Source of the DNA: Candidatus Blackburnbacteria bacterium RIFCSPHIGHO2_12_FULL_44_25
Lineage (GTDB): Bacteria > Patescibacteriota > Microgenomatia > UBA8517 > UBA10165
Length of the DNA stretch: 38,936 nt
Direction: 5' to 3'
Assembly: GCA_001816455.1 (NCBI GenBank)
Contig: MHCB01000003.1
Location: 1 to 38,936 of the forward strand
Shown: one piece after another, positions 26,264 to 31,646 of the stretch
Layout of the letters: each line of letters opens with the position of its first letter
Numbering within the stretch: position 1 is the stretch's first letter
Notes under the pieces: generated by a model
Seen by the model: only the letters and a program-made list of their open reading frames with translations
Databases searched by the model: none
Told to the model about the DNA's origin: nothing
Translations under genes and position numbers: made by a program

Positions 26264-27247
26264 TTATTTCTTAACATACCTTGACTTAACCGCCGGTATG
26301 TAAATATAAACAGGGACTTCCCCAGCTTCCGTTCTCGCTTTCCCGTCAAGAGTGTAAACAGGCAAAAGCGCAGTTGGGTTCTCAGGAGAATATAAAAGTC
26401 CCAGCTCAATAAGCTCAATACTTATCTGGCTAGGCACCAAAAGAAGCGGCGTTTCTGACGCTTCACCAAGGCTTAACATTTTACCTTCTACAACAAATGC
26501 ATTTTTTATTTCCTCTAAATTTTTCAACGGATAGGGAACCTGCATTACGGGTGTCGTAAAACCACTCCTATAAATCAAACCATAAATTTTTCCATCCTTA
26601 CCCAAATAAGCTGAAACAAGAGGTGTTTTAGGGTTAGTATCAACAATTTTTATCTTGTCGAAAGTGGGGTCTGCCGAAACTTCCAGTAAACTATCGTTAA
26701 ATACAGACACCGTTTTTTCAAAAGCAAAGTCAACGCCCGAAACATCCAAATCATTTAAGGTTAAAACGTTTTTAACAAAGTCAATACCAGTCTGCTCAGA
26801 AGGAAGATCGCCTTCGGTAGGTGGAGAAGCAAGGGACGGATCCTGACCAAGACTTATGTCCAAAGGAGAAAGCCTTATAGATAAACTTTGTGAGCCCGAC
26901 AACCACAAGTAATAATCTCCAAAAGTAGCGTCTTGAGATATGTTAGAAGGCTCTTCAGGAAACCCAAACGTTTTTGCCAGTACCTTTGCTTGTAAAGGGG
27001 TCATGGCCCGCGGAGAGGTCTTATACACGGCCATCTGAGTAGGGAGCACAGTAGAAACAAATGTTACTTGAGTAGAAGTTAAAACACTCTGCCCAGGCAA
27101 CTTCGGATAAGATATAACTGGTAAGTCGGGTAAATCCTCCTTTCTCTCTCTTGATCTCCCTTGAATCCACAGAAACAACAAAAGCACAGCAGAAGCAGTA
27201 ATCAAGAATAAAAACCAGTTTTTTTTAACAAAACCCATCATAATCAA
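26264..27247 (-). CDS. Hypothetical membrane-anchored protein
   Basis: ORF of 327 aa with N-terminal TM 'NWFLFLITASAVLLLFLWIQ'; no family recognised. Confidence 0.7.
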   Translation of the reverse strand: MIMMGFVKKNWFLFLITASAVLLLFLWIQGRSRERKEDLPDLPVISYPKLPGQSVLTSTQVTFVSTVLPTQMAVYKTSPRAMTPLQAKVLAKTFGFPEEPSNISQDATFGDYYLWLSGSQSLSIRLSPLDISLGQDPSLASPPTEGDLPSEQTGIDFVKNVLTLNDLDVSGVDFAFEKTVSVFNDSLLEVSADPTFDKIKIVDTNPKTPLVSAYLGKDGKIYGLIYRSGFTTPVMQVPYPLKNLEEIKNAFVVEGKMLSLGEASETPLLLVPSQISIELIELGLLYSPENPTALLPVYTLDGKARTEAGEVPVYIYIPAVKSRYVKK

Positions 27248-29346
27248 CGTTTACATGTAGCCGGCGGCCAAATGCTTCCTACATCAGGCGAACACAAAAG
27301 GTAAGGAGCTATCTTACCTCCTCGAACCTCATAATGTAAATGGTTTGGATCACCATCTTGACGAGGAACGCCTTCTGCCCCGACTATACCCACAACATAC
27401 CCCTTGCTTACCTTTTTTGTTTCACCAGCTCCTAAAGCTACAGTCCTCATGTGGGCATACAAAGTTGAAATCTTTTTACCCCTGCAAACAGTCTCTATGG
27501 TGACCCATTGACCATAGCCTGGATACATATCAGGTTGTCTGGTGGCAATACCTCCATGTGTCGCCATAACTCCCTGCCCGGTAATAAGTTTTCCGTCAGC
27601 ATGTCCAATATCAATAGCCTCAAAACCAGCATGGCTAAATGATCCCCCAGGGCCTTGTGTAATCCTACCAAATGCCGTAGGCCATTCAGAAGGACACTCC
27701 TCTGGAGGATTACCAACAATTACACTGAAACTGTTTGAAGAAGTTTGAGTGTTGGTTTGACTTGCCACCTCAGCATGCGCCACAACAGATATAGTTACAC
27801 TGCTATCTTTCAACGAATCGTCCAACTCCACCTCGACCTCTTTTGTTTTATCGGTAGTCCAACTAAGATCGCCACCCTTAATACTCTTAGACCCATCTTT
27901 GTTAGTTGCCGTAACAGTCGTCGTTGCCGATAAAGATTTAAACGGCTCTTTTTCCTCCTTTATTGTTATAATAAATTTAACCTTCACAGGTAAATCCTCG
28001 TTCTTCATGTTTACCCGGCTAGCCTTTATATCTATCTGAACATACTGTGACCCTTGAGGAGTCGGAGGACCACTACCTTGTTGCCCTGCCACAAGCGCCG
28101 CGTGTTGGTTGCCTATAGAGCTTAATCCTGGTATGACAGCAAAGCCACTACCCAATATGATCAACAAAAGAACAGCAACCAAAACGCCACCACCTATAGC
28201 TGCCCCGGTAGGATTCAAGAGTGCCAAACGCGCACCAAAAACCGCCATCTGTCTTCCTAGCCACGAACCGGCTCCGCGCATAGCCCCAGCAGCCAGTCCT
28301 CGTCCTCCAATTGAGCCTTGGGAAACGGCGGTCTTCAATGCCGATCCGGCAGTTTGTCTTATTGTTGAACCCAACGGTAAACCAGGAGTAGGAACAGGAG
28401 CGCTTGGCGTCCCGACACGAATAAAATTACGAGCAGAGTTCAGGTCTATTTGTAAAAAAGACGGGCGATCATAAGCCGGCCGAGCATCTTCCTCCTGAAA
28501 ACGGCTTGGTGGTATTAAAACATACGAACCGACCCCGCGAGGCAACTGCCCTGTGGCTTGAACTTCAACCTCTCGGCTTACATCCGGCAAACCTTGTTGT
28601 AGAAGTTTCATCTCCTCTGTTTGAGCAAGCTGAGGTTCTTCCCTGGCAAATTGCCCTAGTGCTTGCTGCAATTTTTCTTGTGTAGACCTGGGTAGTGGTA
28701 TGAGACCAAACGTCAAAGGAGAAAAAATTTCCTTAAATTGGTCCAAAATCAACTCCTGCCAACTTTTTGGCTTGAGAGCAAGCCGAAGCATTGAGGCAGC
28801 ATGTTTTTCTCTCAGTCGTTCTGCAAGTCTTGAGTCTTCCGAACCCTCTTGAGTAGTAGGAGAACTAACAATAGGAGCAACTCGCCTTGTTGGTCCCATC
28901 CGAACAAACTGAAGCCCAGGGTCCAACGCTTCCTCGTCCGGCCCGGGAGTTTGCCCCTCCGAAGCCTGCGGTGTATGTTTCTGAAGAGACTGCCAGGCCG
29001 CAAGTTGAGATTTCTGAGACAAAGCTTCCTGAACCGGGCTTTGATAAGTTGGTTGTGCCGGTTGAGTCTGTGGAGATTGTGGAGATTGAGGTTCAGTTGC
29101 CCTTTCCTCGCCAGATCTTATTCGACCCGGCCGTGTCGTTAAAGTAGATGCATCATAAACAGTCCCGGGAGTAACTTCTTTGCCTACTGGTGGCGGAGGG
29201 AAAGGGGGAGTCTCTTGAGTTTTAGTAGGGATCGTTGGGCGCGGTCCGTGCTTACGAAAAAAATTCCGAGCGACAGTTTCTCGTGCATCAGAAACAGCAT
29301 TCCCTATTAAATCAAACAAACCACGCGATTTCTGAGCCATGCCCAA
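27244..29346 (-). CDS. M23-type metallopeptidase domain protein with TM anchor, T4SS-associated
   Basis: C-term 'FSHAGFEAIDIGHADGKLITGQGVMATHGGIATRQ...YGQWVTIET...STLYAHM...GYVVGIVGAEG...NHLHYEVRGG' (LytM/M23 pattern with HLHYE); TM 'GGGVLVAVLLLIILGSGFAVIPGL'. Confidence 0.85.
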   Translation of the reverse strand: MGMAQKSRGLFDLIGNAVSDARETVARNFFRKHGPRPTIPTKTQETPPFPPPPVGKEVTPGTVYDASTLTTRPGRIRSGEERATEPQSPQSPQTQPAQPTYQSPVQEALSQKSQLAAWQSLQKHTPQASEGQTPGPDEEALDPGLQFVRMGPTRRVAPIVSSPTTQEGSEDSRLAERLREKHAASMLRLALKPKSWQELILDQFKEIFSPLTFGLIPLPRSTQEKLQQALGQFAREEPQLAQTEEMKLLQQGLPDVSREVEVQATGQLPRGVGSYVLIPPSRFQEEDARPAYDRPSFLQIDLNSARNFIRVGTPSAPVPTPGLPLGSTIRQTAGSALKTAVSQGSIGGRGLAAGAMRGAGSWLGRQMAVFGARLALLNPTGAAIGGGVLVAVLLLIILGSGFAVIPGLSSIGNQHAALVAGQQGSGPPTPQGSQYVQIDIKASRVNMKNEDLPVKVKFIITIKEEKEPFKSLSATTTVTATNKDGSKSIKGGDLSWTTDKTKEVEVELDDSLKDSSVTISVVAHAEVASQTNTQTSSNSFSVIVGNPPEECPSEWPTAFGRITQGPGGSFSHAGFEAIDIGHADGKLITGQGVMATHGGIATRQPDMYPGYGQWVTIETVCRGKKISTLYAHMRTVALGAGETKKVSKGYVVGIVGAEGVPRQDGDPNHLHYEVRGGKIAPYLLCSPDVGSIWPPATCKR

Positions 29347-29397
29347 TTGTATCGCATTTTAATCAATGTTACTGATTTATAGCAGCATTCAAGAAAA

Positions 29398-29677
29398 CTC
29401 CAGACTTTCAGTCTGGAGATGAATTGAACGCTGATATGTCATCCTCCTTTAGAGGAGACCCCGCTCTTCAGAGCGGGGAGGATGTCATACAAATTCCAAA
29501 CCCGCATTGAACTGAATAGTTTTTTTGCATAGTTTTCCTTACTTGGCAAAAAACTCTTCCAATTGTGCAAACAATTGAGAGTGACTGTTGCGTAGTTTCC
29601 TACCGCAAAGCGGCAAGGTCTTACGAAGTAAGTTCTTATCGAAGCATACAGCAAGGTTCTCCGATTCCCAATCGGAG
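29398..29677. repeat. Intergenic hairpin array (at least six stems), possible IS200/IS605-type relic
   Basis: CTCCAGACT-TTC-AGTCTGGAG (29398-29418); CCCCGCTC-TTCA-GAGCGGGG (29459-29478) within outer arms CATCCTCC/GGAGGATG (29440-29484); ACTCT..AATTGT-GCAA-ACAATT..AGAGT (29553-29582); CCGC-AAA-GCGG (29603-29613); CTTAC-GAA-GTAAG (29620-29632); CTCCGATT-CCC-AATCGGAG (29659-29677). Confidence 0.85.
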
Positions 29678-29681
29678 GTTC

Positions 29682-31646
29682 TTACTCTTCTTCTACTTGG
29701 TAAATCGGCCCTGCTGGCTGCGAAGGCGGTTGTGGGGGAGTAGGTGGTATTACGGGAACTAGCACCACAGGAGCAGTCTGTTGTGTTGGCATTGCCTGTG
29801 TTGGGTTGCCCTGAGTCCCGAGTCCCGAGTCCCGAGTCTTTCTTTCCACCTCCCTCTCTTCAACAGTCTCCGAAGGCTTCGTGCTTACTAGTTTATATTC
29901 TTCTTCCGACGCAACAACCCGAATTGCAACATGATTGGATCCCGCAAAAAAGATCCCTTCTCCAATATCTGACGCCAAAAGTAACTGCTTCTCTCCTTGA
30001 GAAAGCTTAAAAACCTCTCCAACAGTGTCGATTGCAGTAGGGGACTGTTTCATGAGAAGCCTTAAAGCAGAATTTGTAACAATAGCTTTTCCAATGTCCA
30101 AAGATAAAAAGTCTTGAACGTCCTGGGTAATAGTGGTCAATCCCAAGTAGTACTTTCGCGAACGTTTTGCAACGGAATACAAAAACGCCGCCGTATCAGG
30201 GTACCGCATCATATGCCAAGCCTCGTCAACTATTAATATCCTTTTCTTCAAAGTTTCCTTTACCCTAGTCCATATAAAATCCAAGATCACAAACATCGCA
30301 ATTGGGCGAAGTGCCTCTTCTAAATCTCGAACCGAAAAGACAGTAAAAGGGTTAGTTAAATTAATGTTTGTGTGCTGATCAAAAATTCCAGCAAATGACC
30401 CCTTTACAAATTTCTCTAATCTATCCGCCAAAGATCTGCTAACCTGATCCTCCATACCAATTAAAGTCTTATAAAGATCCTCCATCAAAGGCGGCGGCTT
30501 GGTTTGAGTAGTAGGGTCAGGTGTTATCCCCTTAGCCTTGTAGGTTGCAATTAGAGCCCTGTCCAAAACCGCCTGCTCCGAAGGATTAAGCGTCCCCATT
30601 ATTACCCCAAACAAAGAATGTAAAGACAAAATCTTAAGACTAAGTTGATTCTCCTCGTCCTGCCGAACGGTTGACAAGTCAAAAGGGTTAATCTTAGCCT
30701 GAGAACCAAAAGAAAAAGATATAAATTCTCCCCCTACAGCCCCTGCTAGTTTTTGATACTCCTGCTCAGGATCAATAATAAAAACCTCAGCCCCAAACAT
30801 TAACGAACGCAAAGCCTCAAGTTTTACAGCAAACGATTTTCCCGCGCCCGAAGTAGCAAAAATAACCGAGTTGTAATTCTCCAAACTAAATCTATCAAAA
30901 ACTACCAAAGAATCATTATCTTCGTTTATCCCATACAAAACCCCTCGGTCAGAAGAAAGTTCAGCCGACGAAAAGGGAAAAGTTGTAGCCAAAGAAGTAC
31001 TATCCATGTTTCGGGTTATAGATAGCCGATCTTCCCCCAAAGGTAGAGTCGTTAAGAATCCATCCTCCATCCTCAAACTTGTTTTTTTTGCAACAATAAG
31101 GATAGATCCCAAAGTAGACTCAACCTGCGCCGTTATATTGTTTAACTCTTCCAAATTCGAAGCAGGAATCGTTATGTAAAAGGAAAACTGAAAAAACCGT
31201 TCAGCCCCCTTTACTAGTTGCTCTTGAAGACCCCTGGCATCCTCAAGTTTTGCTTCTGTCGAAGGGTTAAGTATCTTTCCGCGCTGAATATCCGTTGCAA
31301 TCTCAGCCTCCATCTCAGTAATTTTGCGTCGAAGGTCATCCAAGACCCCTTTTCCCTGGACAGGATAAATAAAGAAAGAAAGATCTAAAGAATGGTCAAA
31401 GTTTATAACCGGATCGAGCCAGCCAGGATAGACAAACCGGGGATACCCGGAAATAAACAAGGTTCTAAAATACCTTTCGTTTATTATCATATAATCAAAA
31501 TCAATCTCAATTTTCTTTGGAGCAATAATGTCCTGGATCGACTTACTTGTAGTCGGTTTTTTTTCAAGATTTGTGGGGACAGACCCAGTAGTCGGGTGGT
31601 TAACACCAGATTTCTTAAACATTGATAGCGGATTTGGTAATTGCAT
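29682..31646 (-). CDS. virB4: VirB4-type T4SS ATPase
   Basis: Walker A 'ATSGAGKSFAVKLEALRSLMFGAEVFIIDPEQEYQKLA', Walker B 'KRILIVDEAWHMMRYPDTAAFLYSVAKRSRKYYLGLTTITQDVQDFL'. Confidence 0.93.
   Translation of the reverse strand: MQLPNPLSMFKKSGVNHPTTGSVPTNLEKKPTTSKSIQDIIAPKKIEIDFDYMIINERYFRTLFISGYPRFVYPGWLDPVINFDHSLDLSFFIYPVQGKGVLDDLRRKITEMEAEIATDIQRGKILNPSTEAKLEDARGLQEQLVKGAERFFQFSFYITIPASNLEELNNITAQVESTLGSILIVAKKTSLRMEDGFLTTLPLGEDRLSITRNMDSTSLATTFPFSSAELSSDRGVLYGINEDNDSLVVFDRFSLENYNSVIFATSGAGKSFAVKLEALRSLMFGAEVFIIDPEQEYQKLAGAVGGEFISFSFGSQAKINPFDLSTVRQDEENQLSLKILSLHSLFGVIMGTLNPSEQAVLDRALIATYKAKGITPDPTTQTKPPPLMEDLYKTLIGMEDQVSRSLADRLEKFVKGSFAGIFDQHTNINLTNPFTVFSVRDLEEALRPIAMFVILDFIWTRVKETLKKRILIVDEAWHMMRYPDTAAFLYSVAKRSRKYYLGLTTITQDVQDFLSLDIGKAIVTNSALRLLMKQSPTAIDTVGEVFKLSQGEKQLLLASDIGEGIFFAGSNHVAIRVVASEEEYKLVSTKPSETVEEREVERKTRDSGLGTQGNPTQAMPTQQTAPVVLVPVIPPTPPQPPSQPAGPIYQVEEE
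29813..29838. repeat. 7-bp tandem repeat (gagtccc)n inside the virB4 3' end
   Basis: gagtccc x3 followed by gagtc; encodes RDSGLGTQ on the minus strand. Confidence 0.95.

Follow-up and report, generated by a model that had tools for sequence, protein, structure and literature searches.

A probable PATE-like mini-transposon built from IS200/IS605-type ends in small bacterial genomes, with copies at -10 boxes and start codons

The window analyzed here is a stretch of 38,936 nucleotides, contig C3 in the assembly of Candidatus Blackburnbacteria bacterium RIFCSPHIGHO2_12_FULL_44_25 (841 kb in 39 contigs, 95.7% complete); genomes of its relatives are mostly 0.5-1.5 Mb in size, and these sizes suggest Patescibacteria (CPR). 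A hairpin-rich gap in this window is bounded by genes for an M23 peptidase and a VirB4/TraG-type ATPase (Table 1), both of which lie on the same strand (minus); a same-strand arrangement had been stated in the original prediction. All motifs that it quoted were present: the minus-strand motif TTCAATTCATC-hairpin-TTTTCTTGAA, the nested GGAG and CCCCGC hairpins, TGTCAT at 29437 and 29483, and GCAAGGT at 29613 and 29651, 38 nt apart. The fold of positions 29377-29489 on the plus strand had an energy of -52.4 kcal/mol, compared to -27.2 +/- 3.4 for shuffled sequences (z = -7.4); a similar value was obtained for the minus strand (z = -7.6), and the fold of 29505-29700 was weaker (z = -3.0). Two terminator-like sites were seen against 0.5 expected, one of them being the minus-strand hairpin 29418-29398. 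No sigma-70 type promoter was found in 29250-29750, and a distant blastn search of a plasmid collection yielded no match.

When the hairpin region was compared with its own genome, it separated into two blocks, A and B, each of which was found elsewhere apart from the other. The stretch is two independent dispersed repeats in one intergenic gap. Thus, the hairpins that had been predicted are real, but they do not form a single six-hairpin array, and the GCAAGGT pair, which had been assigned to the same element as the nested hairpins, belongs to element B. Element B is a lineage-restricted repeat, with eight matches in this genome, two in G001 and few elsewhere. Its copies differ by small GCAAGGT-type hairpin units, which are tandem in contig C11; the copy in the window contains one extra unit of this type. 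Beside an element A copy on C11 of G000 (L003, 1630-1740), three tandem 39-nt units GCAAGGTTCTCATGAGATGAGGTTCTTACTGCAACA were observed, and GCAAGGTTC-hairpin-GGTTCTTA units were also seen within an apparent coding frame in L024. Element A was examined in relation to palindrome-associated transposable elements (PATEs), known from Haloquadratum walsbyi (PMC3119063).

Table 1. Genes and repeat features in and around the hairpin-rich gap (positions in the window)
Feature	Position	Strand	Basis or remark
M23 peptidase gene	27244..29340	-	ATG at 29340; own TACAAT at 29346-29351, 5 nt before ATG
Target pentamer TTATA beside left end (minus strand: TATAA)	29377..29381	+	Constant T[T/C]ATA at border across copies
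Element A, probable PATE-like mini-element, LE + RE, gene-free, 107 nt	29382..29488	+	Sharp borders, 67 copies
Left-end (LE) domain: outer stem, symmetric internal loop, hairpin	29383..29433	+	Pairing; homology to left ends of tnpA-tnpB and tnpB elements
Guide-like GAAAA 5' of LE hairpin	29393..29397	+	A29394 covaries with target T29378 and flank T29420
LE hairpin, terminator-like stem then TTTTCTTGAA, directed at M23 gene	29398..29418	-	Terminator-like site
Right-end (RE) domain, TGTCAT at both feet, end ...GGGGAGGATGTCAT	29435..29489	+	Terminal hairpin and tail equal those after tnpB in phage contigs
RE terminal hairpin CCCCGCTC-loop-GAGCGGGG	29459..29478	+	
Element B, second unrelated dispersed repeat, three hairpins, end GGTTCTTA	29516..29684	+	Self-genome and relative matches
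VirB4/TraG-type ATPase gene	29682..31646	-	Stop codon TAA supplied from inside element B edge

Five copies of element A were identified in the own genome and more in G002, G003 and G005 of the same family; a covariance model of the element detected it in 40 of the 286 class genomes searched, and at least 13 matches were obtained in the richest genome. Sixty-seven copies were set side by side for border analysis. The commonest form, read on the minus strand, is WATGACATYCTCC-hairpins-GGAGGATGACATATCAG-NN-TTCAATTCATCC-hairpin-GGTTTTCTTGAA-NN-CTGN-TATAA. Flanks beyond the borders were unrelated between aligned copies, and no flank repeat indicative of target duplication was present on both sides of these copies. 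The element contains no gene and, at its length, is too short for a transposase. Its LE domain comprises 17 pairs, 12 of which showed two-sided changes, and 93.1% of cells were paired, compared to 24-47% in slid controls. The fold with homologues is thus in accord with the original prediction, which had named a lack of related copies, together with a lack of a transcript or covariation, as the outcome that would speak against it; copies occur in this genome and in relatives, and covariation is seen. Copies in G018 were up to 98% identical, and its spread in that genome is therefore recent. The prediction of a transposase-free, palindrome-associated derivative of the IS200/IS605 type therefore stands, but that of a mere relic does not.

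Some copies and related structures deviated from the common form. An extra segment of about 50 nt was present in the hairpin of the left-end domain in L120 (2001-2161), and about 14 nt were added to the stem of this domain in L134 (2001-2126). In addition, five loci from class and phylum relatives (L296, L299, L306, L309 and L311) contained a left-end-like hairpin, AGAAAAC..GATGAATG, and behind it another hairpin whose end lies near GAAGTTTATA; these mini-elements probably represent further PATE-like families.

As in IS200/IS605 elements, element A is inserted 3' of a fixed short target, T[T/C]ATA, and carries a guide beside a hairpin. Three positions varied together: the second base of the target (29378 in the window), the guide base that follows CAAG and, in the hairpin 3' flank, again the second base. 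The combination T/A/T was found in 43 copies and C/G/G in 10, with no mixed combination; the border was TGTAA instead of TATAA in one of the 43 T/A/T copies. The C/G/G copies (target TCATA; TATGA on the minus strand) form one clade, implying one guide-target switch in the element A family. C/G/G was also present at the left ends of the tnpB element of G098 and of phage contig L227. The structure of IS608 shows target T-3 paired with guide A+16, a base triplet being completed by T+43 of the hairpin 3' flank (PMC5934647). To judge from the aligned copies, the three-position covariation of element A is a match to this guide-target triplet in kind and geometry. IS608 and ISDra2 likewise have the guide 5' of the hairpin foot and bases of guide, target and 3' flank that vary together (PMC5934647); however, element A contains neither tnpA nor tnpB, and its target is TTATA or TCATA rather than TTAC or TTGAT.

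Homologues of the LE domain were detected ahead of genes in several autonomous or partial elements: ahead of tnpA-tnpB in G640, where tnpA is complete (135 aa, PF01797, E 6e-45), ahead of tnpB in G098 and phage contig L180, ahead of a partial OrfB gene in G517 and ahead of a TnpB-like ORF with no Pfam match in phage contig L227. The RE domain ends in a CCCCGC hairpin followed by GCGGGGAGGATGTCA. In a scan of viral contigs, the RE hairpin GGGGAGGATGTCA was found after tnpB-like frames, called by motifs and not by Pfam, in nine phage contigs (L329, L332, L333, L334, L338, L345, L348, L352 and L358), the frames ending from 130 nt before to 14 nt beyond the RE tail. With LE being the left end of complete elements and RE the 3' end of tnpB, element A corresponds to both ends without the genes, and it is best described, on these homologies, as an IS200/IS605-type LE and RE joined, with tnpA and tnpB gone. 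The original prediction was correct in calling the minus-strand motif IS605-like; this motif is, however, the left end of the element when the latter is read on the plus strand. The omega-RNA-like part corresponds to the CCCCGC hairpin with its end GGGGAGGATGTCA, again in plus-strand orientation.

The matching LE and the matching RE occur on different autonomous elements, and no single element with both was found at relatives' loci or in viral contigs. The tnpB loci of G025 and most tnpB loci of the class were without element A ends. A first viral scan with a loose motif gave mostly chance matches: a fold was obtained for seven of the roughly 80 loci, and two proved to be true left ends. Perfect palindromes TTGACATCCTCCCCGCC...GGCGGGGAGGATGTCAA stood alone in two phage contigs (L331, 5472-5509, and L334, 10955-10992), directly after the ends of open frames and with no tnpB at the site.

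Congeners G018 and G017 could be compared at two loci. At the tRNA-Cys locus, element A is present in G018 and absent in G017, so that its insertions differ between species; the flanks have diverged and the junction is not base-exact. At the def locus, G018 reads GGTTTTCTTGGGTTCTGC followed by TATAATAGCTAGTATGGTTC, and G017 reads CGCCACAATAATTGA followed by TATAATTACTTCATGGTAC. Compared with G017, element A in G018 abuts the native -10 box of def, in agreement with the lack of target duplication.

Native -10-like hexamers cluster 5-9 nt before ATG (30 in 246 upstream regions of the studied loci), a spacing that would suit leaderless mRNAs, and 13 of these 30 are accompanied by an extended -10 TG. 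Among 41 TATAA copies of element A, 10 had an ATG (ORF of at least 45 aa) 2-12 nt past TATAA, compared to 32 of 942 other TATAA sites (p = 3e-6). When only intergenic sites and a stricter ORF rule were used, the enrichment was modest (9 of 41 copies vs 14 of 178 sites, p = 0.02), and 31 of the 41 copies do not adjoin a gene start. TATAAT-ended copies were found close upstream of rpmH, rpmE, def, a class A penicillin-binding protein gene and dnaG, the ATG of the last lying 17 nt after the box. In such positions, TTATA copies can lie directly against the native -10 box of a housekeeping gene and provide the TG of an extended -10. Two further copies, L091 2001-2112 (tRNA-Arg) and L121 2001-2105 (tRNA-Thr), have TATAAT just upstream of a tRNA gene, placed as if it were the -10 box of the tRNA promoter. 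Conservation of a terminal TATAAT for promoter use was considered and rejected, the sixth base being T in 20 and A in 25 of 52 copies.

The TATGA-ended copies (target TCATA) showed a stricter arrangement: each of the 10 ends in a start codon ATG, the ORFs concerned being 229-667 aa long and including gatB, pheS, mreB, yceG and genes for an ATP-dependent DNA ligase and a glycosyltransferase. Only 38 of 156 non-disruptive TATGA sites are start codons, giving p = 7e-7 for 10 of 10. Neither an SD motif nor a good -10 box was seen at genes with the element one base before ATG. The -10 adjacency of TTATA copies and the start-codon endings of TCATA copies are new.

In the window itself, TATAA is located 36 nt ahead of the M23 start codon, and this copy therefore captures neither a -10 box nor a start codon; it is probably near-neutral at its site. 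Its LE hairpin resembles a terminator when read on the minus strand and may thus incidentally affect the M23 gene; the copy perhaps limits read-through from virB4.

Element A shares several features with PATEs and with an IS605 ends-only element of Halanaerobium (PMC7290912), including near-terminal IS605-type palindromes, absence of inverted terminal repeats, target duplication and genes, and many dispersed copies, some of them strain-specific. It differs from both in its length of only 107 nt, its small-genome bacterial hosts and its target (TTATA/TCATA). Two guide-target classes, and copies located at -10 boxes or start codons, are not described in PMC3119063 and PMC7290912. Free-standing IS605 stem loops on Borrelia plasmids are similar in being dispersed, gene-linked end hairpins without transposase (PMC2775950); however, these are single hairpins at 3' ends of lipoprotein genes, whereas element A has both ends joined and is frequently located at 5' borders of genes. 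In addition, the Rfam family HgcC (RF00062), an archaeal ncRNA family of unresolved function (PMC5732400), gave a full-model match to 29397-29496 (E 3e-6; 33.7 bits, below the gathering score of 50), in which hairpin, GAUGA, hairpin, CCCCGC hairpin and GGGGAGGA-GUCA tail follow one another as they do in element A. This likeness suggests that HgcC may derive from IS605-type ends. Rfam matches to mir-653, CRISPR-DR54 and others fell short of the respective cut-offs and were disregarded.

This genome of 0.84 Mb contains six genes for Y1 transposases whose length is RAYT-like (open frames of about 150-244 aa; L009-L014), and each gene is flanked by a palindrome pair of its own. They raise the alternative that element A is a REP/BIME-type repeat spread by resident RAYT (TnpA-REP) transposases, and REPs are likewise short dispersed hairpins linked to Y1 transposases (PMC8266576). 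However, element A has no GTAG motif; no transposase with its ends was detected in the host genomes examined, neither at the 25 Y1 loci inspected nor among the Y1 genes of this genome and nine relatives; four copy-bearing genomes (G024, which is one contig, G038, G009 and G002) contain no Y1 gene; and its ends are common to tnpA-tnpB and tnpB elements instead. With no ends in common, the RAYT genes were rejected as its mobilizer, and we regard this explanation as very unlikely. Thus, the search for copies in the own genome, proposed with the original prediction, did reveal copies, but neither a Y1 locus with element A ends nor TnpB.

The absence of TnpB also bears on the suggestion that element A is a TnpB-less omega-RNA domesticated as a guide RNA. 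Although RE equals the 3' ends of tnpB, where omega-RNA scaffolds lie, and the sub-threshold HgcC similarity points in the same direction, no PF07282 match was found in this genome (95.7% complete), TnpB occurs in a single genome among 59 from the order, the RE scaffold is retained over no more than about 50 nt, and the would-be guides in the flanks differ at every copy. A working omega-RNA is unlikely where no TnpB was found; this part of the original prediction was not borne out, and the chance that it is correct seems extremely small. It might also be proposed that element A is a cis-regulatory RNA, a cassette of terminator and promoter or leader kept for regulation, with mobility being secondary. 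Its terminator-like hairpin, the start-codon positions of all TATGA copies and the TATAA copies at -10 boxes of housekeeping genes are in favor of such a role; on the other hand, most of the TATAA copies (the 31 noted above) lie away from gene starts, the downstream genes share no function, copies are gained or lost between congeners, and the borders and guide-target covariation are of the transposon type. We consider this possibility improbable. In contrast to these alternatives, element A is very likely a PATE-like non-autonomous transposon, in which the LE and RE of a tnpB-bearing IS200/IS605-type element were joined and the genes lost.

For this PATE-like transposon, we infer mobilization by a Y1 transposase, a promoter function and a reason why such sites are kept. 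By analogy with IS608, a single strand of element A would fold, and a Y1 HUH transposase acting in trans would bind its hairpins. The guide 5' of the left hairpin would pair with the target TTATA (TCATA in one clade), and the element would then insert 3' of this pentamer, leaving no target duplication. The opposite strand of TTATA reads TATAA, which forms the core of a -10 box; insertion at such a site would keep the host -10 box and place the conserved CTGN in front of it (TGNTATAAT), forming an extended -10 that would stand behind a terminator-like hairpin. Such insertions may be tolerable because the host -10 is kept and an extended -10 is formed. A more tentative idea is that element A serves as a portable gene-start adaptor in genomes rich in leaderless mRNAs: its guide would pair with the -10 complement and an extended -10 would be restored by its end, making insertion upstream of essential genes harmless, and in one clade the guide may have shifted by one base pair to start codons (TCATA being the complement of TATGA), making every examined copy an exact 5' border of a gene.

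With the guide-target switch, guide and target of an IS200/IS605-type element have changed jointly in nature, something that for IS608 has been described as an engineering result. Through its likeness to HgcC, element A provides a testable idea of how this archaeal RNA family arose. It also revives the question raised by Haloquadratum, where movement of PATEs was observed although intact tnpA was scarce (PMC3119063), of how mobility is achieved when the genome contains no matching transposase. Finally, element A suggests how mini-transposons may persist in compact genomes: they would choose targets at which the disruption is repaired by their own end.
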